A DNA stretch of 64,000 nt from Craspedostauros australis. Lineage: Eukaryota > Bacillariophyta > Bacillariophyceae > Mastogloiales > Achnanthaceae. Positions 3,449-31,516 of the stretch are shown here, in pieces (position 1 is the stretch's first letter; every line of letters begins with the position of its first letter). Under the pieces are notes generated by a model. That model had not been told where the DNA came from, did no database searches, and saw nothing but the letters and a program-made list of their open reading frames with translations. Where the stretch lies: contig JAMXDE010000007.1 of the NCBI GenBank assembly GCA_026770025.1, forward strand, positions 1,612,001-1,676,000, read 5' to 3'. A program made the position numbers and the translations under genes.

Positions 3449-4276
3449 ATGTCTCCTCTCCACGAATTCATGAGCGGGCTGGCGGTCCAGCACAACAGTC
3501 CTCTCCACATCCAGGATGACAACGCCAGACTGCCGCCATCCTCATTCTGCGACATCATCCGCCACAGCCCGAGATGCACAGCGCAGGCATGCACTGCTGG
3601 CTGCCGCCGCAATCAGTTCCGCCGCAGCCGGGATCACAGCTCGAGCCGCTGGGAGACCTGCGCGGCCACAGCAGCGGCCAAGTCCACCATCAAATGCGTT
3701 ACGACTGCCAGGGATGAGCACAGCGACTTCTTGCCATCGCTGCTGTTCAAGTCGGCGACGCAAACGGACTCTAGGACGAGCTCAAGCACTCAGGAGGCCC
3801 TCCTCTATCCCGAGACACCCACGCCGGCCTGCAGGTGGGGAGAAAACTCATCGCCTTGCGCCGTGTCTCCCACGATGATCGCAAGGTCACCAAGCGATTC
3901 GATGGCCATCCAAGAGGCTTCTGCGCAGAGTTATGACACGACGTCACTGCTATCGCCCGCCACCGCCACGGCAGCCGCCACAGAGGCCGAGGTTGCCGCC
4001 GCGGCTGCAGCAGCAACCTTGTTCCGCAGCTTGCATTCGCCACCCTTGCCAAAACGCAAGGTGTCCGGCGTCGTGGGGGACATTATCAGCGCCAGCGCGA
4101 TCGCTGCCGTGCAGGCATCTAGCCGGCGCAACGGCAGCGACAATAGCCTCGCGAGTCAGAGCAGCGGCGGCAGCACCAGGCAGCTGCAATCCATCAGCAG
4201 AAACCGATACGACCAGCCAAAGTCGTCGTCGATGACGCGGTCCATGCCAGCCACGATCAGGTCGCTGCCATACTAG
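3449..4276 (+). CDS. Hypothetical Ser/Ala-rich protein
   Basis: An intronless frame of 275 residues. The start ATG follows a pyrimidine-rich leader (CTCTACTCGACAAG) and is the first ATG of the frame. The N-terminal third has a cysteine cluster around residues 30-52. The middle has an alanine run (about residues 163-190), and the C-terminal quarter is rich in serine, arginine and glutamine. No conserved domain, signal peptide or membrane segment is visible, and most of the chain looks disordered. Its nearest neighbours are unrelated. The even composition and clean leader favour a real gene, but I do not recognise a family, and a chance open frame in GC-rich DNA cannot be excluded. Confidence 0.45.
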   Translation: MSPLHEFMSGLAVQHNSPLHIQDDNARLPPSSFCDIIRHSPRCTAQACTAGCRRNQFRRSRDHSSSRWETCAATAAAKSTIKCVTTARDEHSDFLPSLLFKSATQTDSRTSSSTQEALLYPETPTPACRWGENSSPCAVSPTMIARSPSDSMAIQEASAQSYDTTSLLSPATATAAATEAEVAAAAAAATLFRSLHSPPLPKRKVSGVVGDIISASAIAAVQASSRRNGSDNSLASQSSGGSTRQLQSISRNRYDQPKSSSMTRSMPATIRSLPY

Positions 4277-13567: not shown

Positions 13568-16500
13568 TTAGCCCAACAAACCCATGTCGTCATCGTTGTC
13601 CCCGTCTAGCTTCATCCCCATGCCCCCGCCACCGTCCGAGTAGCTGCTGCGGTTGCGACTGCCGCCCTTCAACTTGATCTTCCCAAAGAACTTGCGCGTG
13701 TTGCGGCCGATCTTGCTAATATCCGGTTTCATCGATAGGCCAAAGCCCTTCCTCGACGAAGACTTCTTGCCTTCGGCGCCACTCCCAGAGAAGTTGTCCA
13801 TGTCGTCGCTGCTGCTGAGACCAGGTTTGTTGAAGGACGATCCGAGCATTCCGGCCGTGTCTGACGTGTTGTCATTCTCACCGATTGGTGGTAAATCAGA
13901 CGTCCCGAACTTGCTCAGCATCGGCTGCTTGTTGCCTCTCAACGACGTGGACAGTCCAAAGAAGCTCGCCGGCCCGTTGCTGGTGCCACCGTCGTTGTTG
14001 GAATCCGTGTTGTCGCCATTGTCGTCTTCGTCACCCTCCATGATGGTTGGTTCCGCCCCGGCCGCCAAGCCCCCGCCGTCAGCACCGAAGCGCCGGCGTC
14101 CCGACAGCAACCCCAAATCGCTGGCGTTTGTGGCAGTTGTCCGCACGGAGTTCTGCCTGTCGAGCACAAAGTCTCCTCCCTTGTTCTGGACCTTCTCCAA
14201 GGCTTCCGCAGCGGTCATCGGCCTTGGGCCACTGTTCGCGAATGACGCTCCGGGCGCCTGCTCTTGTCCAAACTGGCGCTGGGTCGACTGGAAATTGGTT
14301 TTACCGGATGGGTTCGGAGCGGCAAATGACGTATTTGGCTGCAATGGTTGTTGGTGGAAGTCTTGGAATCCATTCTTCTTGAGATCCTCCATCTCTTTCT
14401 TGAGTTCGAACACGGAGAACAGCTTTTTGGATTTCTGCTTCTTCACTTCGTCATTGTACACCTTTGTCGGATCTGGCATGCCGCGACTGCGGTGGCGTCG
14501 ACGATGGCTACCACTGTTAGGTCTGCGGTAGCTACCATGCTTGCTTGACTTGGTGTTCCGCCGGCGTTCCATCTGCGCGCGTCTCAGATTGGCCTCGAGA
14601 GAATCATCCGAAGCTGAACCATCGGTGTCGCCGGCATTGGCTTGACCGCTCTTGTTCTTCGCCTTGGACTGTTCGACCGCGGCTTTCAGTTTGCCTTCCT
14701 TTTGCATCGAGCGTGCCTTGAGACGGAAAAGCTCGTCGTCAAAGCCATCGCTCACACCAGATAGACCTGAGACGACCGAAAGTGCCGCGGATTCTTCGTC
14801 AGAATTGAGTCCGTCGGAGTTATCATCCTCCGCATCCGAATCCATAATGATCGACCCCCCGTCGCTGCTAAAGTTTGCCTCGTACGCCTCTTCTGGCTCT
14901 TCATCGAAAACATCCTGCATCGCTCTTCGGAACTCCTTGGAAAACTTGCTGTCCAGCTTGCGACGCCTTCGTTTGCTCCTCTTCTTGCGTTTCTTGTCCT
15001 TCTTTTCGCCTTCGAACAGGAACAGGCGGGGGAACTCTTCCGCGCCCGTCTTGGTCATGTTCTTCTGATCGACCTTGGTCCTTTGTCTGTCCTCGCGGCG
15101 CTGGCTGATCTGCGCGGCCACGTGCTTGTCGGCTTCCATCGTCTCCCATTTTTCTTGGAAATCCGCCTCCCAGCCCTTGGTCTTCTCCGCGACCTTGCTT
15201 TCCATGAGTTCGAATTCGACTTCGTCGAATCGCAAAGATTCCATGAAATCCGCTTCAACCTCGCTGTTGCCATCGCTGCTTTCGTCCTCTTCCGGCTCTT
15301 CGTGGATGGTTGCTTCGGCGCCCATCGTCTTTTCTTGGGCTGAGAAGGACTGGTTGAAGTTGAATACAGAACGATCGAAGAAAGAGGGATTCTTCTCGAA
15401 GAAGTCATCTTGGATGTCATCGTCCCGCTCAGATGACTCCTCCGTAATCCCACCTTTGATTCCCAGCTTCGATGCTCGATTCTTGCCAGACGACTCCCAG
15501 GGATGCGCCTTGGGTTTTTCGAGCGTAGCACTGCTTTCCCCGAAGAGGAGAGATGCATTCAGGTTCGGCTTGGGCTTGGGTTTCCTCCTTTTCGTTGCCT
15601 GCTGTTTTCTCGAATCGATGGTACCAAGGCTCATTTCATCCCCATGCCGTGTCAAGCCGACGTCGTCGTCACTGTCATCATCCCCTCTTTTTTGAGCGGC
15701 GAGATGTGCTGATAGATCCATCGTTTTGGGTTTGCGCGGTGACAGGTGCTTTCCACGAACGGTCACAGAGCGTCCGCTAGGATCGGCCGGTTTGTGGGGG
15801 AGTTGCATTGATGATTCCGACGAGGACAGGGCCCCATCTGGCAACGCATTCTTCGGGTCACTACGCTTGTTCCGCGAGGAGGAGGAGGATGACGATTTGC
15901 TCTTGCTGATTGTCTTGCGTTTCGCTCCTTTCAGGCTCTTCGAAGATGATGTTGACCGCGGTGGTTGGCGTCGTTTGTCGTTGGACTTCGACGATGTTCT
16001 CTTGTCCCCTGACTTGCCCTTCCCTCCTCGGCTCTTCTTGGAGGTAGATGAGGCCCTGGATGCATGCGAGGAAATAGACTTTGAGCGGGGTGCTTTCCTG
16101 CCTCCGTTCGATCCATTGGACCTGCGCGACGAACGGTGCTTCTTGCCCTTACTCGCTTTGCTTGACGAAGTCGATGCGCGGTCGATAGCTGATGCTGCCG
16201 TCGACTGTGATCGCACTTCGAGGTCCTCCTTCGACGATACGCTGCCTTCGGCGTCGCTGTCGGAATTGGAGCTGTACCCGCTGGACGATGACAAAGACTC
16301 GTCGGAATCATCGCCTTCCCACTCCGTATCGGTTTCCCACGACGATGAGTCGTTCATCATTTCGTCTTGCAGCTTCTTCTCGATGGTCTCCTGGACGAGC
16401 TCTTCTTGCTTCTTCTGCTCTTCCTCCATCTTCTTGATTTCGTTGTCCATCTCCATCGCCTTCAGCTGCTCCTTGATCAGATCCTCCTGCAGTTTGCGCG

Positions 16501-19500
16501 CCTTTTCCAATTCAATCTCTTTCTTGCTCTTGCCTCTACCAAACCCAAACCAACCACGTTTTGCAGGGTCAGAGTTCCTCACGGACATCGATACGGACAC
16601 CGACGCCGACGGGGCCACAGATTGATTTGACGATCTCACTGGTGGCTCTGTTGTCTCCGAGAGACTTGATGGTAAGTTGGTAAAGACGACCTCATCCTTT
16701 TTCTCGCTGGCGTCGAGTTCTGCCTCACCCGTCGAGCTCACTGGAGGAGGTTTCTTTACTTTGCGCCTCATCTTCTTTGGCTTCTTCTCCTTCCTATCTT
16801 TCTTGTTCTTTTTCTTCTTTCCCCTCTTGTCTTCTCTCTGACTCTGTTGGCTAGATGCGGTTTCGAGGTCCTTTGCGCCCTTGATGTTATCGTCTTCCTC
16901 GATCGTAGCAGCGCGAGTGAGGGCAACATCATCATCAGATGCTTTTTCGTCTGGTGGTTTACTGGACTCGATCTTCGGAGCTTCGCGATCTTCGGTTTCT
17001 GTATGCCCGCCCTGTGAAGTTGCTTTGCTGTTCGTATGTCGTTTGGATGGCTTAGTGCCGGACTTGGCAGCTGACTTCTTCGTCGGCTTGATAGGTGACT
17101 TGCTTTGCGCGGTGTCGTCGTGCGTTTCTTTCGACTTTGGCTGTGACGCAACGCTGTCAATTGGTTGGACAACTGGTTGCTGTGGAGCGTTCTTGCTGAG
17201 CCGTTCGTCCTTGAGGAGCTCGAGGTCTTCTATCTCATCTTCACCGAGCTCTTCACCGCGCTTCCGTCTTTCGAAGCAGTCCAACTCGAACAGCTCGTCG
17301 TCACTCAGTTCGTCTCCAGCACGAGCACGCTCGAAGAGCTCAAGCTCATACAATGCATCAGCATCATACTGCTCTCCACGATCGCGGCACTTGATCAAGT
17401 CCTTGAGGGTTTTTGCGTCAAGAGCGAGTTGGCGACGTTCGTCTCGCAGCAAATCGAGCTCATCCAGTTCATCGTCTTGTAGCTCCTCGCCCAACAGGCG
17501 ACGCTCGAACAGCACAACCTCGTACTCCTCGTCCTCATTCAACTCCTCTCCTGCCCGGCGCTTCTCGAACAGCTCCAGCTCATACAAACGATCTTCATCC
17601 ATACTCTCGCCTGCATCCTGCATCTTGTGCAAGTCCGTGAGCTGATTCTGTGTGAGCACATCGAATTTAGATCTTGTGAAGTGATCGAGTTCATCCAGGT
17701 CTTCGTCAGTGAGTTCGTCTCCGTTGTGCTTCTTGTGGATGATATCGAGGATGATGAGGTCATCTTCGTGCATGTCGTTGCCGTTGTGATCGTCTTCGAG
17801 TAGCTCGAGTTCGAAAAGGTCGGGGAGGTTGATGTTGTGACCTTGTTGCTGTTGCAATCTGAGATCCTTGAGTGTGTTGATCCATGCTGGAGGAGCAGCG
17901 TCAGCGTCAGTATCGTCGTCTGCGGTGTTGATGAGTTCTATATCTGTGGTTGCGTTGGTGGGCGAATCATCTGCACCGGCGACATCGTCGTTGGCATCAA
18001 CACTGGCGGTATCGCCGCCAGTATCATTATCGCCAATTCCATCACCATCACCGTTTCCGACCGGATCGCCACTCTCCTGCTTTTGCATCTGCAACAGCCT
18101 CTCGATCTCCTGCTGAGCCGCAAGCTTCTCTTCACGCTCCATCTGCAGCATCTCCAGATCTTCGATCTCGCTTTCTGACAGCACCTCACCACGTCTGCGC
18201 CTCTTGAAGAGGTCGACTTCGATCAGTTGATCTTCGTCGAGATCGTCACCTCGAAAGTGTTTTTGGATGAGTTCGGCTTCATAGAGCGCTGCGTGGTCGA
18301 TTTCGTATCCGTCATCGAGTTGGTATCTGAGTGTGACGACTTCGGCTTCTACACGTGCCTGTAGCTCGTCGTCGTCCAATGCATCATCGTGGTCGGTGTT
18401 GTCATCATCTTCGGCTGGGTTGGAGCGATGGGGAAGATCTTCTTGTTCAGCACCCTCCCCAGCATTTCTTTGGCTTGGCTGTTCCTGTTGATCAGAAGAA
18501 GCCCCGCTCTCTTTTTTTCGCCAACCAAAGCGGCTGAACCATGGCTTTCCAGTTGTTGGTTGATCGGCTTGTGGTGCATCTTGTGTTGGTGCTTCTGGGG
18601 GATCTTGTGGGCTGTTCGCCTGTACATCTTCTGGGACGTTTTCTGCACTTTCAGCGGGTAGCGGAGGTTGCGGAGATGCCTTTACTTTCGCTTGGTCGGC
18701 GCCATCAGAGGTTGATGCTTTGTGGTGGTGGCCAGGTTGATCTGGTTGGCCTTCGGCTTCCTCCTTGGGCCGGTTGGCTGGCTGTTCTTGCTCTTTTGGT
18801 CGGGGTTTGCTGGCATCGATGTGATCTTCGTTGATATGCTCGTCCTTGCCGTTGCGATCGAGGTTCGTTTCATCATTCTGAGCTTCGACGTGGCCTTGGC
18901 CTTGATCGTCTTTGCCAGAATTCTCATTCTCATTCTCAGCCTCATTGACATCAACATCAGTCTCCTTGCCTTCCAAAGCGACCTCGTGGCGCTCCTCTCT
19001 CAGCATGTCAAGCTCATCCAGTTCATCATCCTGGAGCTCTTCACCTAGCATGCGACGCTCGAACAGCACAACCTCGTACTCCTCATCCTCATTCAGTTCC
19101 TCTCCAGCTCGGCGCTTCTCGAACAGCTCCAGCTCATACAAGCGATCTTCATCGATACTCTCGCCTGCATCCTGCATGTCGTACATGTCCATGAGCTGAT
19201 TCTGTGTGAGCACATCGAATTTAGATCTTGTGAAGTGATCGAGTTCATCCAGGTCTTCGTCGGTGAGGTCGTCTCCGTTGTGCTTCTTGTGGATGATGTC
19301 AAGAACGATGAGGTCGTCTTCGCTGATATCGTTGCCGCTGTGGTCATCCTCGAGTAGTTCGAGTTCGAATAGATCTGGGAGGTTGATGTTGTGACCTTGT
19401 TCCTGTTGCGATCTGAGATCTTTGAGTGTGTTGAGCCATTCTGGAGTATCATTGTTGGTGTTGGTGTCGGTGTCGGTGTTGGAATTGTCATTTGTATTGA

Positions 19501-22500
19501 CATCCGAGGTGACGTCTCCGCCAATGTCTCCACTTCTCGTGGCTTCGTTCTTGTTGGGGATATCCTCCGCACCAGTCGCTTTGCGATCCACATGCTCTTT
19601 TTGGAGCTCTAACAGCTGCTCAGTTGCTCTCTGAGCCGCACGCCTCTCCTCACGCTCCATCCTCAACATCTCAAGCTCCTCCAGATCCTCATCGGCGAGA
19701 TCCTCTCCTTCTCTCCGTCGTTGAAACAGATCAACTTCGTACAGTTCGTCTTCGTCGAGATCTTCGTCTCGGAGGTGCTTCAGGATGAGCTGAGCTTCGT
19801 AGAGTGCATCATGATCGATGTCATGTCCGTCGCTGAGTTGTTGTTTGAGTGTGGTGATCTCCTTGAGGATGTCGCTTTCTTGGTGAGTGTCGGTTGACAG
19901 AAGTGAGTTATCGTCTTCAGGTTGTTGACTGTTGGGCGACATTGGACTGTTCAGTGCGTCTGATGCAGCGCTTGGCGATGCGTTCGTGTTGTGCGATTGG
20001 CGCGACGAGAGGGACACATCATCGTCGAATGGTTGCTCTGAGCTCAGTTGATCTCCCTGGACATTTTTCTGATCTATGGCCTGAGCCTGAGAAGGATCCC
20101 CATGCTCGGAATCTTTGCCATCGATCGTTTTCGTCTGAATCCCGTTCTGAGCACGGGTAGCACTGAGACTGTTGCTGCTGCTACTGCATTCATCACTCGC
20201 TGGTTCTTCGCGAGTGAAACGCGCTTCGCCTTCTTCTTCCTCCTCTATCTCCGATGGGCCACTGGTGTCGCTTGGTCTGTCTGCCTCCGATACTTCCGAT
20301 GGCTGTTCTGATGTGGTCGCTGCATCAACATCGGTTGCAGGCTCAGCAGAACCATCGGGCTTGCTTGCTACGTTCGTGGGTTGATCCTCGCCTGGCTCGG
20401 CCGAAGCATTCGCGTCTTCAGCGTGCTCTGATGGACGATCGTTTCCGTCACGGTCGCTTTTTGCAAATTGGTTACCCTCCTCATTATTCGCATGCGCAAT
20501 CGTGTCCTGGATTTCACTGCTGTCGTTGCTTGGCCCTGATTTCCTGTCGTCGTCGGATATGACGGAATCTGACGGTCGGTCAAAGCCGCCAAATTCACCG
20601 ACGTCATCAAAACCATTTGCACTCATTCCATCTTTTTGCTGGTCGATTTCGTTGGTGTCTACAGAGTTCTGTGGTTGACTTTTCGCGTGTTGGTTCTTTG
20701 TTGTTTCTCGGTTGTGTCCTTCACCATCTCTGCTCAAGGAGTTTGTGGCAGATTCATCATCGTTTCCAGCTTGACTTTCGCTGAACCCGTTGTCGCTGTT
20801 CGAAAGCAACGCTTGTTTCGCGCCAACAACATTTTCCTCAGTGTGCGAATCGCCCCCTTCAGTTCCGCGTCCAGAACTCTCGTTTGGGTATTGCTGCGAC
20901 GCTCGAGCTTCTCGCAACTCATCCAAATCATCGAGGTCATCGTCATCGAGCTCTTCGCCTTGTTGTCTCCTCTCAAAACAGTCCAGTTCGAACATCTCAT
21001 CATCAGTCAGATCTTCCCCGGAATCGGCACGTTCAAAGAGCTCAAGCTCATACAACAGCTCCGCATCGTATGACTCTCCTCGATCACGACGACGTCTGAG
21101 CTCCTCAAGCTCTCCCACCTCTTCCGTATTGATTGCATCTTCACCGCCATTGCTATCCCTGTCTCCCTCTTCATCAGCGTCTTCAACATTGACGCTGTCG
21201 CTGGTATTGACATCGCTGCCTTCGTCAGCTTGCCCATTTCCATCCTCATTCTCATCGACATCAACATCAGTCTCCTCGCGGGTAGAAGCAAGCCCGCGGC
21301 GCTCCTCTCTCAGCATGTCAAGCTCATCCAGCTCATCGTCTTGCAGCTCCTCGCCCAACAGGCGACGCTCGAACAGCACAACCTCGTACTCCTCATCCTC
21401 GTTCAACTCCTCGCCTGCCCGGCGCTTCTCGAACAGCTCCAGCTCGTACAAACGATCTTCATCCATACTCTCGCCTGCATCCTGCATCTTGTGCAAGTCC
21501 GTGAGCTGATTCTGTGTGAGCACATCGAATTTAGATCTTGTGAAGTGATCGAGTTCATCCAGGTCTTCGTCAGTGAGATCGTCTCCGTTGTGCTTCTTGT
21601 GGATGATATCGAGGATGATGAGGTCGTCTTCGTGCATGTCGTTGCCGTTGTGATCGTCTTCGAGTAGCTCGAGTTCGAAAAGATCGGGGAGGTTGATGTT
21701 GTGACCTTGTTGCTGTTGTGATCTGAGATCCTTGAGTGTGTTGATCCATTCTGGAGTAACCGCGCCTGTTTCGGCATGGGCAATGTCATCTGCAGCGTCA
21801 TCTGCATCATCGTTGGTTTCGTCATGACTGTGAGCTTGCGTGGTCGTTGTATCGGGCTTGTCATTGATGTCGATATCATGATCCGTCGTCTCTTCTGCCA
21901 TTTCCTCCTGGATCGATGTTGGAGGAATGGAATCGGATTCGTGCCCGAGAGCATCATCGTTGTTTTCGTCCGTGGCGACATCTCGAACTGCAGTGGGAGC
22001 GAGATCCTCGAAGCAGCCAACGATATCTACATTGGGCATGTCTGATTGCTCGGCATCGCTGTCGTGATGGCTATTTCTATCCATGCTGCTGGCGTTGATG
22101 TTGACGATGTTGTCATTTTCATCAACTTCATCATCTTCATCATCTTCACCATCACCATCAGTGCTGCTGTCTTGATTGCTGGTGCCGTTTTTATCATCGG
22201 CTTCCTCCAGCACTTTCGCAACGGTGCCTTCATGTGAACTATCGCCGGGAACGTTGATGAGATATGTGTTGGATTCTTCGGATTGGGTGGCATCGCCATC
22301 GGTTTTGCCATTTCCGTCGTCGCTGCCGTCGTCGATGAGTTTGCCGCTGATCGCAGAAGGGACGTCCTCAGGTGTAGGATCACCGGCTGAATCCACAGAT
22401 GCGTCTTGGGCAGAATCGAAGCCTCGTTCATTTTTGTTGTCAGCGCTGGCATCCATGGTTTCAAAGCTATGTTCACTTTCACTGCCGACATCGACATCGA

Positions 22501-25500
22501 CAGCGTTCGTGTTCGTTTCTGCTGCGATATTCTCCTCGATGGTATCGTTGCGAAGGTCAGCAGCTCCGTTGCTGGAAAGACTGCGCTGGCTGTCATCCTT
22601 GGTACCGATGATGATATCTCCGCCGACGCTGTCGACTTCGCTACCATTGATGTCGGTGCCAACCTCCAGGGTTTCAGCAGTCGCATCGTGAGATGTGAGA
22701 GTTCTGTCATGCTTTGTGCTCGCCCCGTCGGGCTTGAGACTGTTCCAGGCGTCCTCATCAACACTGCCAATGCTATTGGCTTCACCTTTCGCGGGAGCCA
22801 TGAGCAGATCTGGAGCGAAAGATTGCGAAACTCCTGCATTGTCATCACTTGACGTCGCGCTGCAAGAATCATCTTCCCTCTTGTTCGGAGTATCGATGGC
22901 ATTCGCGGCTGGAATGGGACTGTCCAAGGCTTGTTCTGCACTGCTGTAAGTGCTACCAGAACTGGCAGTGCTATTACCAAGCTCACTGTTGTTGTCGGAA
23001 TCGTGAACATCGTCGCTTCCGTTCGTGACGGCACCAACGGGTGTGTGAGCCGAACGTTCGATGAAGTCGCCGTTGGAGTCGGCAGATTCGTCCTCAGGAT
23101 GATTACTCGTACCAGTGCTGGAATTGCTCTCTACGTCGTTTCCATCATTGCCTTTGTCACTGATCTCATCGTCACCATAGTCATTGCCGTTGATGGGATC
23201 TATCACGATTTTCGATGCGACAGCTTCCGGAACCTCGATGGTTTGATTCACGCAGGCATCAGTTTCGCTGATATTCTCGCCGTCTTTAATGGGATTGTTG
23301 TCGATTTCACGGTCGTCCTGATTAGCAGCACTCTGGACGGAACTGACTTCACCATTGGTAAGATTTGGGTCGCGATCGAACGTGGGAGTGGCAGCGTTTT
23401 CGATGCCTTCCGTACTGATTGCATCAGCTTCTTTATCACTGCAGCTGTTGTTTGAAGTGCTGTCTCCAGGAGCGTTGCCTTCGGCGGTACCGTTCGTCTC
23501 AGGCCTGGCACCGAAGTCCTTGAAGGCTCCGAAGTCTTCTTTCTCTTGATGCGGATGGGATTCGGGGCTGTTGCTGTCTTGAGCCGCGTTCTCGCCATCT
23601 ATGGTGGCATTGGTTGGCTCAGGAGCATCGCCGAAATCTTTGAAAGCCCCGAACGCTTCAACTTCACGTGGATTGGATCCGGTGGTGCTGGTCTTCATAT
23701 CGCTGTCTTCAGGAGAATTGTCATCACAGTGGACGCTTGTCTCAGTTCTGCCACCAAAATCTTGGAACGTCCCGAATGCGCTGAAGGCCTCACTGTCGTC
23801 TGGATTTGAGTTGGTGCTGTCGCGGACGTCCAATGCATCCGCGTCGTCGATCGTTGCAGCTGTTTCTGGAACATCATCGAAATCCTCGAAAGCTTCGGAT
23901 GCTTCACCTTCAGGTTGGCTGGATTCGGCGGTGCTCTTCTCTGTGTTGCTATCTTCTGACCCATGATCGTTGTCCGTGGTACTGGTGTTTGCAACATCAG
24001 CGTCGGCGAAATCTTCGAAGGAACCGAATGCTTCACGTTGAGGTGGATTGGAGCCGATGCTGCTGTGGCTGCTGTTTCCATTTCCTAAGTTGTCTTCAAA
24101 GGTACCGGAGATGGCGTCATCAATCGCAGTGATGGTTTCGGGAACAACATCGAAATCGTCGAATGCTCCCAACGCGCCGAATGTTTCACTGTCGCCCGGA
24201 TCACCCGGATTGGAATCGGTAATGTTGCGGCTGTCAGAGACATCGGCGTTGTCGACGGCAGTGACGTTTGCGACATGAGCGTCACCGAAATTGCCGAAGG
24301 CTCCAATCACTTCACCTTCATGCGGGTTGGAATCCTCGCTGCTGCTAACGTCGCTGTTTGCGATGTTGGCTTCGTGGGTGTCGTCATTGGTGATGTTTGT
24401 TGCAGGAACATGACCGAGGTCTTCGACCGCTTTGGATGTTTCAACTTGACGCTGATCGGGCGTGCTTGTAGCGCTGCTACTGCTGCCGCTTTCGTTTGCA
24501 ACCGTGTCCTCACGAATGACATCAGTGATGATGTCTGTCCCGGGACTTTCATCGAAATCTTCGAAGGCTCCGAATGATTCACCTTCGTATCCTTCACGTT
24601 GTTGGAAGTCGCCGGCATCACTTCTGCTTGCGCCTTCGTCAACAAGAGCATCATTGATGGGAGCTGGAGTTGCCTCAAGAGAATCGCCGAAATCCTCGGA
24701 GGCTCCGGATGCGTCGCCTTCGCGAGAATCTGAGTCAACGCCGCAAATATCATTTCTGTGGTTGTCAAAAGTCTCCTGAGAGGCGTTGGCATCGGTGACG
24801 GATGTGTATGTGTCAGGATCGCGTCCAAAATCATCGAACGCTCCGTCGGCTTCGCTGTCGATTGGATTGGAATTTGTGCTGCTGTTACGTGAATTGTTGT
24901 CTGCAGAGCTGCCGTCATCACTCTCGTTGCGGCCACTGTCGTCGCTGTCTGTGGCTGGGGTAGTGTCAGGATTGTCATCAAATGCAGCAAACGCTCCGGA
25001 TGGTTCGGTTTCATGAGCATCGGCATCGGCGCCGATGTCGCTGGTGCCACTGTCACCATTGATGTTGCGATGGATCTTGGTTCCCGTGATACCAAGACCG
25101 GAATGATTATGGGAATCATCATAAGTCTGGGATGCATTGCTCTCAGAGTCTTCCTCGACGATGCCATCAATTTCATCAACAGGTGCCTCGATTGATCCAC
25201 CATGACTGCTGTCATCTGGGTCGCACTTTCGTCCATCATCCACACCCTCACGCATATCCAAATCCATATCCATATCTATGTCCGCATCCGCATCCACGCC
25301 GCCACTATCCGTCCCTTCGTCAATGCTAACGCCATCTACATGGCTGCTACCATCGAATCCTTCACCATCACTCGAGGCATCATCGATCCCGTCGACCAGA
25401 TCGCGAGCTTCATCTGTTTCCAATGCTTGCTTTGCTGTAGCCTCCAACAGCTGCTCAGTTGCTCTCTGAGCCGCACGCCTCTCCTCACGCTCCATCCTCA

Positions 25501-28500
25501 ACATCTCAAGCTCCTCCAGATCCTCATCGGCGAGATCCTCGCCTTCTCTCCGTCGTTGAAACAGATCAACTTCGTACAGTTCGTCTTCGTCGAGATCGTC
25601 GTCTCGGAGGTGCTTCAGGATGAGCTGAGCTTCGTAGAGCGCATCATGATCGATGTCATGTCCGTCGCTGAGTTGTTGTTTGAGTGTGGTGATCTCCTCG
25701 AGGATGTCGCTTTCGAGGTGCTTGTCGGTTGACAGAAGTGAGTTATCGTCTTCAGGTTGTTGACTGTTGGGCGACATTGGACTGTTCAGTGCGTCTGATG
25801 CAGCGCTTGGCGATGCGTTCGTGTTGTGCGATTGGCGCGACGAGAGGGACCCATCATCGTCAACTATGTGTTCCTGTCCGATATCTTGCTCCATATCTTC
25901 CTTCTTGAGGGCAGCTTCTGCACGCTGACTGGCGCTTTCTTCAAGGCCGTTGCCATCATTTCCTCCCTCTAGTTCGGCGTTTATGGCATTAGCGCTCGTG
26001 TGTCCCACCGCATCTGCCTCGTCCGATTCCAAGTCTTCATTGATGGCATTGGTGGCAATTGGATCAGATTGCGAAAGTTGACCCGACATGCCCATCGCCT
26101 GCAGTGATGCCGTGGTGTCAGAATCATTTGATTCGCTGACTTCACCGATGGGTTCGAGGAATGCGCTTGATTCAAAGGCTGAATCTTCGAATGCCATCGA
26201 CGACTTGTCGTTGTCGTTGTCGTCGTGCTTGTGCTCGTGCTCGTGCTTGTCTGTTTGTTGAGAATCAGTGTGGTGATCACCAATAATGTTGTCATGGAAT
26301 GATGAATCGAAGGCTTCTGGATTATCATCCGCGTGATCGTCGTCAAGAAAAGTGGATCCTTCGTTGTCAGAACTTGTGACACGAAGTGTACTGAAGTCGT
26401 CAACGTCATCGTCTCGGCCATCCTTCTGATTCGTGCCGAACTGACCGAAGTCACCAAACTGCATCGACAGGCTCTTGTCTTTTACGGCCTCCGGCGATGC
26501 CAAGGTTGGCGGAGATTGACTGTCATTCGATGATGCGAATTTATCGTGAAACGCGTCACCATTGGAACCAAAGTGGTGTTCGTTTGGATTCTTCGAGTCT
26601 TCCATGTGTTCGGGGCGAGTCTGCCAAGCTTCTTTGTTGTCATGGTCGATCTGGCATGTTGCGCTGCGGTGGGAATACTCGTGCCGTTTGGCGTCTTGGG
26701 ACTTGGCCTCAACATCCTGAGATGTTTCGAACGAGTCACTGTCGGTACCTGCGAGGCTCTCTTCTTCGATCACATGCAAGCTGCCGTTTTGAGAACACCA
26801 TCTGTCGTCTGGGATGATACTTCGCCCTCCTTCGCCTTCCTCGGAGGGCTCGTCATCACAGAGGATGGAGAATGAATGTTCTTCATCCCTCTCTTCCAAC
26901 ACGGCACCGTTTCCGTCCGTTGGCTGTTCATCGTCGATCTGTTGTAGCGACTGTGACGAGCTGTCATCCCGTTCCATGACTGAAACATGTTGATCCTGAA
27001 AGTCGTCGCCTCCCTCATCGTCTTGACCAGCTTCCCGCTGTTCCCTCATATCGTCGGTTCCATCATCGAACTCGATGTCTGGCATGGGTTTGGTGTCGTT
27101 GCCATTGTTTTGGAGCCAAGCATCAGCATCGTCTGCTGATTTCCTCTTTCGTTTCAGTATTTCCAAATCGTCGAGCTCATCCTCATCAAGCTCTACACCT
27201 TGTCGCCTCCTTGCGAAGCAATCCAGCTCAAACAACTCGTCATCAGTCAGATCTTCGCCTGCATTAGCCCGCTCGAAAAGATGGCGCTCGTATTGCGTGC
27301 TCTCATCAGGAAAGTCTGCGTGATCAAGGCTGATTGCGCGTTGCTTGGCTTGTTGTGATGCATCGTCTTCACCATTTCTTTGACCACCCCCGTCATCACT
27401 GCTGCCTTCGTGATCAAATCCTTGGCTGTTGTCATCATGCCCATTGGTGTCATCGAAAGCACCACGACTTGATGCCTCCGAACGGTGACGATTCAACCGC
27501 AGCATATCGAGCTCATCCAGCTCATCGTCTTGTAGCTCCTCGCCCAACAGGCGACGCTCGAACAGCACAACCTCGTACTCCTCATCCTCATTCAACTCCT
27601 CTCCTGCCCGGCGCTTCTCGAACAGCTCCAGCTCGTACAAGCGATCTTCATCGATACTCTCGCCTGCATCCTGCATCTTGTGCAAGTCCGTGAGCTGATT
27701 CTGTGTGAGCACATCGAATTTAGATCTTGTGAAGTGATCGAGTTCATCCAGGTCTTCGTCAGTGAGGTCGTCTCCGTTGTGCTTCTTGTGGATGATGTCG
27801 AGGATGATGAGGTCGTCTTCGTGCATGTCGTTGCCGTTGTGATCGTCTTCGAGTAGCTCGAGTTCGAAAAGATCGGGGAGGTTGATGTTGTGACCTTGTT
27901 CCTGTTGCAATCTGAGATCCTTGAGTGTGTTGATCCATGCTGGAGGAGCAGCGTCAGCGTTAGTATCGTCGTCTGCGGTGTTGATGGGTTCTATATCTGT
28001 GGTTGCGTTGGTGGGCGAATCATCTGCACCGGCGACATCGTCGTTGGCATCAACACTGGCGGTATCGCCGCCAGTATCATTATCGCCAATTCCATCACCA
28101 TCACCGTTTCCGACCGGATCGCCACTCTCCTGCTTTTGCATCTGCAACAGCCTCTCGATCTCCTGCTGAGCCGCAAGCTTCTCTTCACGCTCCATCTGCA
28201 GCATCTCCAGATCTTCGATCTCGCTTTCTGACAGCACCTCACCACGTCTGCGCCTCTTGAAGAGGTCGACTTCGATCAGTTGATCTTCGTCGAGATCGTC
28301 ACCTCGAAAGTGTTTTTGGATGAGTTCGGCTTCATAGAGCGCTGCGTGGTCGATTTCGTATCCGTCATCGAGTTGGTATCTGAGTGTGACGACTTCGGCT
28401 TCTACACGTGCCTGTAGCTCGTCGTCGTCCAATACATCATCGTGGTCGGTGTTGTCATCATCTTCGGCTGGGTTGGAGTGATCATGATCTCCTTGCCCTT

Positions 28501-31500
28501 CGTGGGATGCGTGGCTGCCTTTCTTCCGCCAGCCAAAGCGGCTGAACCATGGCTTTCCAGTTGTTGGTTGATCTGGTTGTGGTGCATCTTGTGCTAGTGA
28601 ATCTTCTGGAGTATTTGTTGCACTTTCAGCGGGCAGCGCAAGTGGCGGAGGCGCTTCCACTTCCGCTTGGTCGGCGCCATCAGAGATTGATGCATTGCTG
28701 TGGTCGCCAGGTTGATCTGGTTGGTCTGCAGCTTCATTCTTTCGTTGGTCGGTCGGCAGTTCTTGTTTTTCTGCTTGTTCATGGCTGCTTCGCCCAATGC
28801 TGACGTGTTCATCAAGGCTGGATTGATGGTCATGGCTTTCGTCTTGCGCTTGGCTATCTTCACCAGATTCCTCATCTTCATCTTCATCCTCATCTTCATC
28901 AACATCAGTCTCCTCGCGGGTAGAGGCAAGCCCGCGGCGCTCCTCTCTCAGCATGTCAAGCTCATCCAGCTCATCGTCTTGCAGCTCCTCGCCCAACAGG
29001 CGACGCTCGAACAGCACAACCTCGTACTCCTCATCCTCGTTCAACTCCTCGCCTGCTCGGCGCTTCTCGAACAGCTCCAGCTCGTACAAGCGATCTTCAT
29101 CGATACTCTCGCCTGCATCCTGCATCTTGTGCAAGTCCGTGAGCTGATTCTGTGTGAGCACATCGAATTTAGATCTTGTGAAGTGATCGAGTTCATCCAG
29201 GTCTTCGTCAGTGAGATCGTCTCCGTTGTGCTTCTTGTGGATGATATCGAGGATGATGAGGTCATCTTCGTGCATGTCGTTGCCGTTGTGATCGTCTTCG
29301 AGTAGTTCGAGTTCGAATAGATCTGGGAGGTTGATGTTGTGACCTTGTTGCTGTTGTGATCTGAGATCCTTGAGTGTGTTGATCCATTCTGGAGTAACCG
29401 CGCCTGTTTCGGCATGGGCAATGTCATCTGCAGCGTCATCTGCATCATCGTTGGTTTCGTCATGACTGTGAGCTTGCGTGGTCGTTGTATCGGGCTTGTC
29501 GTTGATGGCGATGTCGTGGTGAGGTTCGTCTGCTGCATCCGCAATGCTCGTCGGTATCACTTGATTGTCAGGCATACCTGACTCACTTTCCTCAGCGTTC
29601 GCGACAAGATCGTTGCGGTCTCCATCGTCGTGCCCATCGTCCTGACTGACTTCATCAACAGGTGCCTCGATTGATCCACCATGACTGCTGTCATCTGGGT
29701 CGCACTTTCGTCCATCATCCACACCCTCACGCATATCCAAATCCATATCCATATCTATGTCCGCATCCGCATCCACGCCGCCACTATCCGTCCCTTCGTC
29801 AATGCTAACGCCATCTACATGGCTGCTACCATCGAATCCTTCACCATCACTCGAGGCATCATCGATCCCGTCGACCAGATCGCGAGCTTCATCTGTTTCC
29901 AATGCTTGCTTTGCTGTAGCCTCCAACAGCTGCTCAGTTGCTCTCTGAGCCGCACGCCTCTCCTCACGCTCCATCCTCAACATCTCAAGCTCCTCCAGAT
30001 CCTCATCGGCGAGATCCTCGCCTTCTCTCCGTCGTTGAAACAGATCAACTTCGTACAGTTCGTCTTCGTCGAGATCGTCGTCTCGGAGGTGCTTCAGGAT
30101 GAGCTGAGCTTCGTAGAGCGCATCATGATCGATGTCATGTCCGTCGCTGAGTTGTTGTTTGAGTGTGGTGATCTCCTCGAGGATGTCGTTCTCAAGTTCT
30201 TGCGATGACTTCAGATTCGTCGACGAATCTCCATTCAGTTGCAATGCAACCTGTGTCTTCGGATGTGTATCGATGCTGGCGTCTTGGACTTCCTCTTGGC
30301 GTAGTTCGCCTGGATCGGGCGGCTCTTCCAGCTGTTGTATTATCGGCGGCCCTGAGTCACTGATGTCATGATCGGATGCACCGATTGAAAGTTCTGACTG
30401 ATCATCTCCAAAGTCTTTGGAACTCTGGTCGTTCTGTGTCTCATGATACTCTTCGGATTCTTGCGAATCATATTCCTGGCTCAACACCGACACGTGCGCT
30501 GTGTCTTTCTGCAAATTTTCGCTGTCGTCTCCGTTCTCACCATCGTCAGCCAAACGAAAAGATTGGCTTTGGTCAGATTCATTATTGTTGTCATCGTCAT
30601 CGCTGGCGATGTCCTTCGCGGACATCGTTGAGCCATCGTCGCCGTCGCCGTCGTTTATCCCATCGTCGGGCGCTGACTCCGCCCGGCCTTGCCTCAGAAG
30701 CTCGAGATCGTCGAGATCATCCTCATCAAGATCTTCGCCTTGCCGTCTTCTCTCAAAGCAATCTATCTCAAATAGTTCATCGTCAGTCAGATCCTCACCG
30801 GCATCGGCACGTTCAAATAGCTCAAGCTCATACAGCAGCTCTGTATCGTATGACTCTCCTCGATCACGACGACTTCGGAGCTCCTCAAGCTCTCCCAGCT
30901 CTTCGATGTGGATCGCACCAGCACCATCGTCACTTTTGCTATCCCCCTCCCCCTCTTCGTCTGCACCTTCAGTGTTGACGCCATCTTCGATGCCTGCGTT
31001 GCCATCTTCCTCATCGTCAACGCCATTTTCCTCGTCATCCAAGGCAAGCCGCTGCCGCTCTTCTCTCAGCATGTCAAGCTCATCCAGCTCGTCATCCTGC
31101 AGCTCCTCACCCAGCATGCGACGCTCGAATAGCACCACCTCGTACTCCTCATCCTCATTCAATTCCTCCTCCGCTCGACGCTTCTCGAACAGCTCCAGTT
31201 CGTACAGGCGATCTTCATCGATACTCTCGCCTTCATCCTGCATGTCGTACATGTCCGCGAGCTCATTTTGCGTGAGCACATCAAGCCTGGCTCTTGTGAA
31301 GTGGTCGAGCTCATCCAGGTCTTCGTCGGTGAGTTCGTCTCCCCTGTGCTTCTTGTGGATGATGTCAAGGACGAGGAGGTCATCTTCATGAATTTCATTG
31401 TCGTTGTGGTCATCCTCGAGTAGTTCGAGTTCGAATAGTTCCCTCAGATCGAACGGCTCACCCTCGTCTTGTTTCTGACGTAATACCGCAAGTCTCTCGG

Positions 31501-31516
31501 TCGACGCCGCGTTCAT
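13568..31516 (-). CDS. Giant acidic repeat protein, about 5,982 residues, single exon, unknown family
   Basis: One uninterrupted frame of 17.9 kb. The start chosen is the ATG at 31,516 (MNAASTERLAVL), directly before the first repeat; the frame stays open upstream but has no ATG there. Residues 15-4,770 are very acidic and built on a 20-residue unit close to LYELELFERRRxGEELxDDE, about eighty copies by eye. These form blocks A (8 units) and B, C, D (4 units each), ordered A D B A C A D B, linker, A D B A C A D. Residues about 2,170-2,670 are linker with repeated FGAFxDF motifs. The tail (4,770-5,982) is basic and Ser-rich, with a Lys/Glu coiled coil at about 4,985-5,050 and a basic aromatic GWFGFGRGKSKK. 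No membrane segment, signal peptide or enzyme domain is visible. Units may be helix-turn repeats with acidic loops. Scaffold, adaptor-binding or cation-binding roles are inference. Confidence 0.85.
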   Translation of the reverse strand: MNAASTERLAVLRQKQDEGEPFDLRELFELELLEDDHNDNEIHEDDLLVLDIIHKKHRGDELTDEDLDELDHFTRARLDVLTQNELADMYDMQDEGESIDEDRLYELELFEKRRAEEELNEDEEYEVVLFERRMLGEELQDDELDELDMLREERQRLALDDEENGVDDEEDGNAGIEDGVNTEGADEEGEGDSKSDDGAGAIHIEELGELEELRSRRDRGESYDTELLYELELFERADAGEDLTDDELFEIDCFERRRQGEDLDEDDLDDLELLRQGRAESAPDDGINDGDGDDGSTMSAKDIASDDDDNNNESDQSQSFRLADDGENGDDSENLQKDTAHVSVLSQEYDSQESEEYHETQNDQSSKDFGDDQSELSIGASDHDISDSGPPIIQQLEEPPDPGELRQEEVQDASIDTHPKTQVALQLNGDSSTNLKSSQELENDILEEITTLKQQLSDGHDIDHDALYEAQLILKHLRDDDLDEDELYEVDLFQRRREGEDLADEDLEELEMLRMEREERRAAQRATEQLLEATAKQALETDEARDLVDGIDDASSDGEGFDGSSHVDGVSIDEGTDSGGVDADADIDMDMDLDMREGVDDGRKCDPDDSSHGGSIEAPVDEVSQDDGHDDGDRNDLVANAEESESGMPDNQVIPTSIADAADEPHHDIAINDKPDTTTTQAHSHDETNDDADDAADDIAHAETGAVTPEWINTLKDLRSQQQQGHNINLPDLFELELLEDDHNGNDMHEDDLIILDIIHKKHNGDDLTDEDLDELDHFTRSKFDVLTQNQLTDLHKMQDAGESIDEDRLYELELFEKRRAGEELNEDEEYEVVLFERRLLGEELQDDELDELDMLREERRGLASTREETDVDEDEDEDEDEESGEDSQAQDESHDHQSSLDEHVSIGRSSHEQAEKQELPTDQRKNEAADQPDQPGDHSNASISDGADQAEVEAPPPLALPAESATNTPEDSLAQDAPQPDQPTTGKPWFSRFGWRKKGSHASHEGQGDHDHSNPAEDDDNTDHDDVLDDDELQARVEAEVVTLRYQLDDGYEIDHAALYEAELIQKHFRGDDLDEDQLIEVDLFKRRRRGEVLSESEIEDLEMLQMEREEKLAAQQEIERLLQMQKQESGDPVGNGDGDGIGDNDTGGDTASVDANDDVAGADDSPTNATTDIEPINTADDDTNADAAPPAWINTLKDLRLQQEQGHNINLPDLFELELLEDDHNGNDMHEDDLIILDIIHKKHNGDDLTDEDLDELDHFTRSKFDVLTQNQLTDLHKMQDAGESIDEDRLYELELFEKRRAGEELNEDEEYEVVLFERRLLGEELQDDELDELDMLRLNRHRSEASSRGAFDDTNGHDDNSQGFDHEGSSDDGGGQRNGEDDASQQAKQRAISLDHADFPDESTQYERHLFERANAGEDLTDDELFELDCFARRRQGVELDEDELDDLEILKRKRKSADDADAWLQNNGNDTKPMPDIEFDDGTDDMREQREAGQDDEGGDDFQDQHVSVMERDDSSSQSLQQIDDEQPTDGNGAVLEERDEEHSFSILCDDEPSEEGEGGRSIIPDDRWCSQNGSLHVIEEESLAGTDSDSFETSQDVEAKSQDAKRHEYSHRSATCQIDHDNKEAWQTRPEHMEDSKNPNEHHFGSNGDAFHDKFASSNDSQSPPTLASPEAVKDKSLSMQFGDFGQFGTNQKDGRDDDVDDFSTLRVTSSDNEGSTFLDDDHADDNPEAFDSSFHDNIIGDHHTDSQQTDKHEHEHKHDDNDNDKSSMAFEDSAFESSAFLEPIGEVSESNDSDTTASLQAMGMSGQLSQSDPIATNAINEDLESDEADAVGHTSANAINAELEGGNDGNGLEESASQRAEAALKKEDMEQDIGQEHIVDDDGSLSSRQSHNTNASPSAASDALNSPMSPNSQQPEDDNSLLSTDKHLESDILEEITTLKQQLSDGHDIDHDALYEAQLILKHLRDDDLDEDELYEVDLFQRRREGEDLADEDLEELEMLRMEREERRAAQRATEQLLEATAKQALETDEARDLVDGIDDASSDGEGFDGSSHVDGVSIDEGTDSGGVDADADIDMDMDLDMREGVDDGRKCDPDDSSHGGSIEAPVDEIDGIVEEDSESNASQTYDDSHNHSGLGITGTKIHRNINGDSGTSDIGADADAHETEPSGAFAAFDDNPDTTPATDSDDSGRNESDDGSSADNNSRNSSTNSNPIDSEADGAFDDFGRDPDTYTSVTDANASQETFDNHRNDICGVDSDSREGDASGASEDFGDSLEATPAPINDALVDEGASRSDAGDFQQREGYEGESFGAFEDFDESPGTDIITDVIREDTVANESGSSSSATSTPDQRQVETSKAVEDLGHVPATNITNDDTHEANIANSDVSSSEDSNPHEGEVIGAFGNFGDAHVANVTAVDNADVSDSRNITDSNPGDPGDSETFGALGAFDDFDVVPETITAIDDAISGTFEDNLGNGNSSHSSIGSNPPQREAFGSFEDFADADVANTSTTDNDHGSEDSNTEKSTAESSQPEGEASEAFEDFDDVPETAATIDDADALDVRDSTNSNPDDSEAFSAFGTFQDFGGRTETSVHCDDNSPEDSDMKTSTTGSNPREVEAFGAFKDFGDAPEPTNATIDGENAAQDSNSPESHPHQEKEDFGAFKDFGARPETNGTAEGNAPGDSTSNNSCSDKEADAISTEGIENAATPTFDRDPNLTNGEVSSVQSAANQDDREIDNNPIKDGENISETDACVNQTIEVPEAVASKIVIDPINGNDYGDDEISDKGNDGNDVESNSSTGTSNHPEDESADSNGDFIERSAHTPVGAVTNGSDDVHDSDNNSELGNSTASSGSTYSSAEQALDSPIPAANAIDTPNKREDDSCSATSSDDNAGVSQSFAPDLLMAPAKGEANSIGSVDEDAWNSLKPDGASTKHDRTLTSHDATAETLEVGTDINGSEVDSVGGDIIIGTKDDSQRSLSSNGAADLRNDTIEENIAAETNTNAVDVDVGSESEHSFETMDASADNKNERGFDSAQDASVDSAGDPTPEDVPSAISGKLIDDGSDDGNGKTDGDATQSEESNTYLINVPGDSSHEGTVAKVLEEADDKNGTSNQDSSTDGDGEDDEDDEVDENDNIVNINASSMDRNSHHDSDAEQSDMPNVDIVGCFEDLAPTAVRDVATDENNDDALGHESDSIPPTSIQEEMAEETTDHDIDINDKPDTTTTQAHSHDETNDDADDAADDIAHAETGAVTPEWINTLKDLRSQQQQGHNINLPDLFELELLEDDHNGNDMHEDDLIILDIIHKKHNGDDLTDEDLDELDHFTRSKFDVLTQNQLTDLHKMQDAGESMDEDRLYELELFEKRRAGEELNEDEEYEVVLFERRLLGEELQDDELDELDMLREERRGLASTREETDVDVDENEDGNGQADEGSDVNTSDSVNVEDADEEGDRDSNGGEDAINTEEVGELEELRRRRDRGESYDAELLYELELFERADSGEDLTDDEMFELDCFERRQQGEELDDDDLDDLDELREARASQQYPNESSGRGTEGGDSHTEENVVGAKQALLSNSDNGFSESQAGNDDESATNSLSRDGEGHNRETTKNQHAKSQPQNSVDTNEIDQQKDGMSANGFDDVGEFGGFDRPSDSVISDDDRKSGPSNDSSEIQDTIAHANNEEGNQFAKSDRDGNDRPSEHAEDANASAEPGEDQPTNVASKPDGSAEPATDVDAATTSEQPSEVSEADRPSDTSGPSEIEEEEEGEARFTREEPASDECSSSSNSLSATRAQNGIQTKTIDGKDSEHGDPSQAQAIDQKNVQGDQLSSEQPFDDDVSLSSRQSHNTNASPSAASDALNSPMSPNSQQPEDDNSLLSTDTHQESDILKEITTLKQQLSDGHDIDHDALYEAQLILKHLRDEDLDEDELYEVDLFQRRREGEDLADEDLEELEMLRMEREERRAAQRATEQLLELQKEHVDRKATGAEDIPNKNEATRSGDIGGDVTSDVNTNDNSNTDTDTNTNNDTPEWLNTLKDLRSQQEQGHNINLPDLFELELLEDDHSGNDISEDDLIVLDIIHKKHNGDDLTDEDLDELDHFTRSKFDVLTQNQLMDMYDMQDAGESIDEDRLYELELFEKRRAGEELNEDEEYEVVLFERRMLGEELQDDELDELDMLREERHEVALEGKETDVDVNEAENENENSGKDDQGQGHVEAQNDETNLDRNGKDEHINEDHIDASKPRPKEQEQPANRPKEEAEGQPDQPGHHHKASTSDGADQAKVKASPQPPLPAESAENVPEDVQANSPQDPPEAPTQDAPQADQPTTGKPWFSRFGWRKKESGASSDQQEQPSQRNAGEGAEQEDLPHRSNPAEDDDNTDHDDALDDDELQARVEAEVVTLRYQLDDGYEIDHAALYEAELIQKHFRGDDLDEDQLIEVDLFKRRRRGEVLSESEIEDLEMLQMEREEKLAAQQEIERLLQMQKQESGDPVGNGDGDGIGDNDTGGDTASVDANDDVAGADDSPTNATTDIELINTADDDTDADAAPPAWINTLKDLRLQQQQGHNINLPDLFELELLEDDHNGNDMHEDDLIILDIIHKKHNGDELTDEDLDELDHFTRSKFDVLTQNQLTDLHKMQDAGESMDEDRLYELELFEKRRAGEELNEDEEYEVVLFERRLLGEELQDDELDELDLLRDERRQLALDAKTLKDLIKCRDRGEQYDADALYELELFERARAGDELSDDELFELDCFERRKRGEELGEDEIEDLELLKDERLSKNAPQQPVVQPIDSVASQPKSKETHDDTAQSKSPIKPTKKSAAKSGTKPSKRHTNSKATSQGGHTETEDREAPKIESSKPPDEKASDDDVALTRAATIEEDDNIKGAKDLETASSQQSQREDKRGKKKKNKKDRKEKKPKKMRRKVKKPPPVSSTGEAELDASEKKDEVVFTNLPSSLSETTEPPVRSSNQSVAPSASVSVSMSVRNSDPAKRGWFGFGRGKSKKEIELEKARKLQEDLIKEQLKAMEMDNEIKKMEEEQKKQEELVQETIEKKLQDEMMNDSSSWETDTEWEGDDSDESLSSSSGYSSNSDSDAEGSVSSKEDLEVRSQSTAASAIDRASTSSSKASKGKKHRSSRRSNGSNGGRKAPRSKSISSHASRASSTSKKSRGGKGKSGDKRTSSKSNDKRRQPPRSTSSSKSLKGAKRKTISKSKSSSSSSSRNKRSDPKNALPDGALSSSESSMQLPHKPADPSGRSVTVRGKHLSPRKPKTMDLSAHLAAQKRGDDDSDDDVGLTRHGDEMSLGTIDSRKQQATKRRKPKPKPNLNASLLFGESSATLEKPKAHPWESSGKNRASKLGIKGGITEESSERDDDIQDDFFEKNPSFFDRSVFNFNQSFSAQEKTMGAEATIHEEPEEDESSDGNSEVEADFMESLRFDEVEFELMESKVAEKTKGWEADFQEKWETMEADKHVAAQISQRREDRQRTKVDQKNMTKTGAEEFPRLFLFEGEKKDKKRKKRSKRRRRKLDSKFSKEFRRAMQDVFDEEPEEAYEANFSSDGGSIIMDSDAEDDNSDGLNSDEESAALSVVSGLSGVSDGFDDELFRLKARSMQKEGKLKAAVEQSKAKNKSGQANAGDTDGSASDDSLEANLRRAQMERRRNTKSSKHGSYRRPNSGSHRRRHRSRGMPDPTKVYNDEVKKQKSKKLFSVFELKKEMEDLKKNGFQDFHQQPLQPNTSFAAPNPSGKTNFQSTQRQFGQEQAPGASFANSGPRPMTAAEALEKVQNKGGDFVLDRQNSVRTTATNASDLGLLSGRRRFGADGGGLAAGAEPTIMEGDEDDNGDNTDSNNDGGTSNGPASFFGLSTSLRGNKQPMLSKFGTSDLPPIGENDNTSDTAGMLGSSFNKPGLSSSDDMDNFSGSGAEGKKSSSRKGFGLSMKPDISKIGRNTRKFFGKIKLKGGSRNRSSYSDGGGGMGMKLDGDNDDDMGLLG
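17200..21760 (-). repeat. Second superblock A-D-B-A-C-A-D of the giant gene
   Basis: Read in coding direction: A (21,760-21,300), D (21,115-20,905), B (19,890-19,605), A (19,440-19,000), C (18,360-18,070), A (17,900-17,440), D (17,410-17,200). Each A block opens with LPDLFELELLEDDH and ends ELDMLREER or similar. Block boundaries are by eye. Confidence 0.85.
23500..25000 (-). repeat. FGAFxDF linker repeats inside the giant gene
   Basis: About a dozen copies of a short Phe-Gly acidic motif spaced roughly 35-60 residues apart: FGAFEDFDE, FGAFKDFGD, FGSFEDFAD, AFEDFDDVPET, GAFDDFGRDPDT and others. They sit in Asp/Ser/Asn/Thr-rich, presumably disordered sequence. Only the motifs are conserved between copies. 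Confidence 0.8.
25170..25715 (-). repeat. Near-identical internal duplicate of 29,650-30,195
   Basis: This B block plus the acidic linker after it (ending near SIEAPVDE) matches 29,650-30,195 with almost no difference at nucleotide level, while other B copies differ more. It points to a recent duplication or gene conversion inside the gene. Confidence 0.85.
27140..31470 (-). repeat. First superblock A-D-B-A-C-A-D of the giant gene
   Basis: In coding direction: A (31,470-31,055), D (30,895-30,685), B (30,195-29,925), A (29,400-28,935), C (28,415-28,130), A (27,950-27,500), D (27,300-27,140, missing its first unit). A further B follows at 25,715-25,440. Order is the same as in the second superblock. 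Confidence 0.85.

Follow-up and report, generated by a model that had tools for sequence, protein, structure and literature searches.

A giant diatom open frame carrying twenty-one copies of an apparently undescribed four-helix module: a candidate multivalent scaffold

The window analysed here, a stretch of 64,000 nucleotides from the diatom Craspedostauros australis, carries on its minus strand an open frame of 5,982 codons that runs from an ATG at position 31516 to a stop at 13568-13570 (all positions are those of the window). A single frame of this length was what the initial annotation had claimed, and its coordinates proved exact. When the region was simulated 40 times with a first-order Markov model, the longest stop-free run over the six frames averaged 244 codons and never exceeded 402. 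A short tandem array of TTGGCACA lies about 1 kb upstream of the ATG (32527-32604), and 41311-44967 on the plus strand contain the frame of a copia-type retroelement, in which GAG-pre-integrase, SH3-like and RVT_2 domains were recognised. The neighbours recognised by Pfam are a PA-RING protein (36813-38117), an ankyrin protein (50141-51823), an ERCC4/MUS81-type nuclease (55558-57573) and the exocyst subunit Sec5 (58321-62201).

The genome at large gave observations of its own. Silicon transporters (PF03842) account for 88 matches, 32 of which cover at least 480 of the 513 profile positions; four of these 32 have internal stops. The matches lie on multiple contigs, several of them clustered, and some are fragments that may be exons or decayed copies. 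None of the control genomes gave a PF03842 match over the cut-off. Diatoms usually carry about ten or fewer silicon transporters, and a few other silica-forming protists have them as well; the transporters are thus strong, if not absolute, evidence of a diatom host. Light-harvesting proteins gave 61 genome matches.

Where does translation of the giant frame begin? A further 74 codons upstream of 31516 are free of stops (71 from the first GTG), and this extension includes a hydrophobic stretch. Because the extension contains no ATG, because the sequence from the preceding in-frame stop up to the hydrophobic stretch lacks a YAG splice acceptor, and because the base at -3 of the ATG is an A, 31516 was provisionally taken as the start, although an exon farther upstream may exist, and the protein as probably cytosolic or nuclear. 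The translation, read by eye and with a hydropathy scale, displayed no export signal or membrane segment after this ATG. Indeed, no transmembrane-like segment was found in the whole protein, whose highest 19-residue Kyte-Doolittle mean is 0.97.

The protein had been described as resting on a 20-residue repeat, and this period is real: the autocorrelation of hydrophobicity inside the modules peaks at lag 20 (0.39; 0.26 at lag 40), compared with 0.02 at both lags outside them. The accompanying estimate of about eighty units survives if divergent helices are included, as 21 modules of four give approximately 84 helical units, but only half that number (42) lie close to the consensus LYELELFERRRxGEELxDDE in an iterated position-weight scan; module B2 lacks a recognisable first helix. 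The period notwithstanding, the working unit of the protein is larger. In block alignments, which covered 18 of the 21 modules, the units are grouped in fours, so that the module measures about 70 residues. Block A, present in six copies, is an end-to-end fusion of two modules; B (four copies) and C (five copies) are single modules.

To what extent does the module occur elsewhere in the genome? A C-module query found 21 places in the 74.8 Mb, all of them in this frame. The first half of A recovered the same 21 places, the weakest being B2 (E 0.143, not significant); the B module recovered them again (B2 at E 2.6e-16), together with one chance match elsewhere (E 4.5). None of the three module queries gave a significant match outside the frame, in a search that scores the best first-look candidates only and that very remote relatives could escape. 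Linker and C-terminal queries were likewise significant only here; the gene is single copy.

Table 1. Features of the giant open frame, in window coordinates, with the basis of each assignment
Feature	Position	Strand	Basis and remarks
Giant protein open frame, ATG to stop, 5,982 residues	13568..31516	-	translation; G/C by codon position 0.639/0.379/0.566
Block A1 (two fused four-helix modules), residues 1-156	31049..31516	-	alignment; most divergent A, dS 0.66-1.11 to others
Module B1, residues 206-279	30680..30901	-	alignment; matched by all three module queries
Module C1, residues 443-535	29912..30190	-	alignment; within exact 538-nt repeat common to C3
Block A2, residues 713-860	28937..29380	-	block alignment
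KPWFSRFGWRKK motif, A2-C2 linker, residues 988-999	28520..28555	-	read from translation; second copy 18512-18547
Module C2, residues 1036-1128	28133..28411	-	alignment; within exact 446-nt repeat common to C5
Block A3, residues 1196-1343	27488..27931	-	block alignment
Module B2, residues 1406-1460, first helix not recognisable	27137..27301	-	alignment
Module C3, residues 1936-2028	25433..25711	-	alignment
Linker segment with F-x-D-F array, residues 2170-2690	23447..25009	-	motif count versus shuffles
Block A4, residues 3259-3406	21299..21742	-	block alignment
Module B3, residues 3466-3539	20900..21121	-	alignment
Module C4, residues 3881-3973	19598..19876	-	alignment
Block A5, residues 4029-4176	18989..19432	-	block alignment
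KPWFSRFGWRKK motif, A5-C5 linker, residues 4324-4335	18512..18547	-	read from translation
Module C5, residues 4387-4479	18080..18358	-	alignment
Block A6, residues 4547-4694	17435..17878	-	block alignment; AlphaFold2 model with B4
Module B4, residues 4701-4775, almost directly after A6	17192..17416	-	alignment, AlphaFold2 model
C-terminal region, residues 4776-5982, Lys/Arg- and Ser-rich	13571..17191	-	composition; single copy in genome

Along the protein, the order is A1 B1 C1, A2 W C2, A3 B2 C3, a 1,230-residue linker, A4 B3 C4, A5 W C5, A6 B4 and the tail, where W denotes a linker carrying the KPWFSRFGWRKK motif. The array looks like two copies of the arrangement "ABC AWC AB(C)". The modules fall into 15 blocks, and 13 of the 14 gaps between these are acidic linkers of 51-1,230 residues; the exception is A6-B4, which forms the longest nearly unbroken helical run (12 units).

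Acidic residues abound throughout: Asp makes up 14.6% and Glu 11.6% of the protein. The modules contain 25-33% ILMFVWY and carry a net charge of -13 to -28 per 100 residues; for the 13 linkers, the corresponding values are 8-17% and -15 to -35. Judged by this composition, the linkers are probably flexible or disordered. The tail (1,207 residues) has 219 Lys and Arg versus 199 Asp and Glu, a net charge of +20 (+1.7 per 100), and inspection by eye points to a likely coiled coil near residues 4998-5056. Clusters of Lys and Arg in the protein include residues 4900-4922 and 5505-5520.

Short motifs recur outside the modules. The F.DF motif occurs ten times in non-module sequence, whereas shuffling gave 0.4 on average, and eight of the ten occurrences fall at residues 2225-2670. 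This F-x-D-F array, which like the Lys/Arg-rich C-terminal fifth of the protein goes unmentioned in the initial annotation, constitutes a second, unrelated repeat (23500-24850, minus strand) of eight copies, often like EAFGAFKDFGD and spaced about 35-46 residues apart in the later part of the array; the linker segment around it (23300-25030) has no relatives elsewhere in the genome. The motif KPWFSRFGWRKK, present in both AWC linkers, is aromatic-basic in character, and a similar one, RGWFGFGRGKSKK, precedes the likely coiled coil at residues 4987-4999. Motifs of this type are possibly membrane- or partner-binding peptides. Phosphorylation-type acidic sites of the form [ST]xx[DE] are not enriched in non-module sequence (164, versus 185 in shuffles).

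The frame has undergone heavy internal duplication, as the initial annotation had noted: we found 15 exact repeats that reach 80 nt or more (538 and 446 nt for the two longest), and the displacement is a multiple of three in every case. The same annotation had argued for selection on the protein, and the module copies do keep both frame and protein sequence. Because dN/dS ranges from 0.04 to 0.25 across all 15 pairs of the six A blocks, the protein sequence of the modules looks constrained. The C modules are of two types: C2 and C5, from the AWC groups, share 65-66% DNA identity with the C modules of the ABC groups. On constraint they are uninformative, because pairs differ by 0-5 changes within a type and are saturated (dS >2) between types.

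Selection alone does not account for the low divergence of the modules; some of it is due to recent copying, because copied tracts cross the module limits into the adjoining linker. After C1 and C3, residues 536-622 are identical to 2029-2115; before C3 and C4, linker residues 1889-1931 are identical to 3834-3876. The 538 nt identical between C1 and C3 stand beside a B-to-C linker that is mostly poorly alignable with that of A4-B3-C4 (34-60% per bin). The surroundings of A2 and A5 have 86-95% DNA identity per 40-codon bin, and C2 and C5, in the same duplicate, have 99-100% (446 nt exact). These values fit an older array that was overlaid by repeated gene conversion or by local copying of recent date, two processes whose patterns are alike here.

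The reading phase of the duplicates was also assessed in raw DNA alignments (ten pairs of five segments), in which 11 of 24 gaps were multiples of three. All seven gaps in the alignment of A1-B1 with A4-B3 were of this kind. The 13 other gaps, which count against a naive argument from the frame, all lie in the alignment of A2-A3 with A5-A6, which crosses poorly matching linker. We took them as alignment noise, because a phase-blind search of the W linkers (A2-C2 and A5-C5) placed four of four ungapped stretches in the same phase.

AlphaFold2 was used to model the module from its alignment, yielding helices at positions 3-12, 19-32, 39-52 and 59-72 with a pLDDT of 90.0 and a pTM of 0.75. One helix and one acidic loop per unit had been foreseen from the hydrophobic spacing, and the predictions bear this out, with a helix of about 14 residues and a loop of about six. 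An A block, whose modelling the initial annotation had suggested, was modelled as A6+B4, which comprises eleven predicted helices (pLDDT 81.5), among them a 31-residue helix (H63-93) that joins the two halves of A. The helix positions are trustworthy; the arrangement of the modules against each other is not, because pTM is only 0.50. Both models are close to single-sequence predictions, since the alignments hold only paralogous copies from one gene.

Does the module resemble any known structure or family? Foldseek searches of the PDB returned 12 matches for the single module (best E 5.5) and 19 for A6+B4 (best E 2.2), none of them at E<=0.001; the search of BFVD with A6+B4 gave 98 weak matches (best E 0.42) and again none at E<=0.001. 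A missing fold match is no proof of a new fold. Among sequence families, Pfam gave nothing above cut-off for either half of the protein, and NCBIfam gave no match for either. A PF25663 match in the tail (E 0.017; 15.4 versus a cut-off of 27 bits) was taken as chance. When 18 of the 21 modules were scanned singly against Pfam at E up to 5, four families appeared, none above cut-off (best E 0.043), in a scan whose HMMER filters drop most matches above E ~0.1. Searches of PDB sequences at E up to 1 gave no match with residues 3001-5172 (2,172 of the 5,982) and none with the module profile. The initial annotation knew of no named repeat family with this pattern, and none was found in Pfam and NCBIfam, at their cut-offs, or in PDB sequences.

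Collections beyond these were also searched. In viral contigs, 600 stretches matched the module profile by pattern, 3 matched the A block and 57 the C-terminal region, and none was confirmed; in prokaryote genomes the module profile matched 592 stretches, again with none confirmed; and an A-block query found no relatives in phages and plasmids. Since these collections are non-eukaryote, their negatives say little. A literature search, confined mostly to sources outside subscription journals, found no description of the repeat among the papers listed. Compared with Pfam, NCBIfam, the PDB and the viral, phage, plasmid and prokaryote collections, the four-helix module is apparently undescribed. 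We tentatively propose, at rather less than an even chance, that a four-helix domain of about 70 residues, as yet undescribed and derived from a helix-loop unit of 20 residues, originated inside one diatom gene, multiplied there to 21 copies and has been kept uniform by gene conversion.

As to function, the reading that we favor, though with slightly less than even confidence, is that of a giant multivalent intracellular scaffold: acidic linkers would string together beads that are predicted to be folded, and a tail rich in Lys and Arg would serve as anchor. Each module would form a compact bead of helices and bind either one partner or a fellow module, and the acidic linkers would stay extended and hold the beads apart. 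The tail could anchor the chain to a polyanionic surface (a microtubule, a membrane or nucleic acid), and avidity would result from the repetition of modules. The array would grow and stay homogeneous through unequal exchange and gene conversion between its copies, and selection would maintain the protein sequence of the modules during this turnover. Two points temper such a proposal: the tail is only slightly positive overall, and a structural spacer devoid of binding function would look much like a scaffold.

Other readings rank below this one. The strongest of them, in our estimation unlikely, is a nuclear protein whose acidic modules bind and chaperone histones or RNPs and whose Lys/Arg-Ser-rich tail provides a nuclear signal and contact with nucleic acid. 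The long acidic tracts would suit such a protein, as would Lys/Arg clusters such as the two named above, but clusters of this kind also occur in cytoskeletal proteins, and no Pfam domain above cut-off was found.

We consider an acidic, cation-binding or biosilica-associated matrix protein improbable, despite the abundance of Asp and Glu and the diatom host. The predicted start showed neither an export signal nor a membrane segment, and the hydrophobic stretch before the ATG has neither an ATG of its own nor a YAG acceptor. The [ST]xx[DE] counts fall below those of the shuffles. Further, mere acidity requires neither folding nor sequence constraint, and the modules are predicted to be folded and have a constrained protein sequence. 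The cation-binding scaffold raised by the initial annotation therefore gains no specific support, the acidity being general.

On a par with the matrix protein, and to be doubted equally, is a wrong gene model, in which the frame is spliced or comprises two or more genes. The end of block B4 (residue 4775) would be a natural boundary for such a division. Against it, no stop interrupts the frame anywhere, and phase is kept by all 15 exact duplicates and by the four stretches of the single linker pair examined.

The initial annotation had also entertained a new solenoid. A helix every 20 residues is what one continuous alpha-solenoid would have, and in an A block the final helix of one half does merge with the opening helix of the following half (H63-93). 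Taken over its full length, the protein is nevertheless not a solenoid, because acidic linkers that are poor in ILMFVWY (8-17%) and up to 1,230 residues long fill 13 of the 14 gaps that separate the blocks; even the 12-unit A6+B4 model reached a pTM of only 0.50 and found no Foldseek match in the PDB at E<=0.001. We thus regard a continuous solenoid as very improbable. Least credible of all is that the repeat array is dead or was produced by the assembly: short reads could be misassembled at the exact repeats of 538 and 446 nt, and the 13 off-phase gaps in one duplicate pair, probably alignment noise, would speak for this reading, but an assembly of 74.8 Mb in 90 contigs suggests long reads, and all 15 A-block pairs differ from one another with dN/dS well below 1.

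The proposed new domain, if it is one, would supply the beads of a multivalent scaffold that ranks among the larger ones in algae. Scaffolds built of helical repeats are common; a repeat module that has no detectable relative is less so. As all 21 copies found in the genome reside in one gene, it can be traced within a single frame how a repeat domain is born and maintained, and the giant multivalent protein is a concrete target for localisation and knockout in a diatom. The same family, if present under a locus number in other diatoms, would lower the novelty of the module.

How does the protein compare with known systems? SHOCT is a short helix-turn-helix with a pattern like L..L..L...G.lT..EF, and the turn of the diatom module, R.xGEeLt.dEl, reads similarly. 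The SHOCT domain of Pfam is reported to be bacterial, short and mostly C-terminal (PMC3581485). SHOCT was absent from the four families that matched the 18 singly scanned modules at E up to 5, a scan in which weak matches may be filtered out. Partners of clathrin adaptors carry arrays of Phe motifs, to which the F-x-D-F and F-x-x-F motifs in the probably disordered linker bear a likeness. The gamma-ear (GAE) pattern had no match in non-module sequence, a weak test because only 0.3 matches were expected by chance.

Like HEAT, TPR and PPR proteins, the diatom protein has short repeated helices with tight loops between them. It differs from them in having one 14-residue helix and a 6-residue loop per unit, grouped in fours rather than in pairs, and in giving no Pfam match above cut-off and no Foldseek match in the PDB at E<=0.001. 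PYCO1 is reported to be the pyrenoid linker of a diatom (PMC10288592). The present protein is likewise a diatom repeat protein and a possible multivalent organiser, a likeness drawn at this general level. PYCO1 is a plastid protein with short sticker motifs; in the protein presented here, no plastid signal was seen, and the repeats are predicted to be folded modules.
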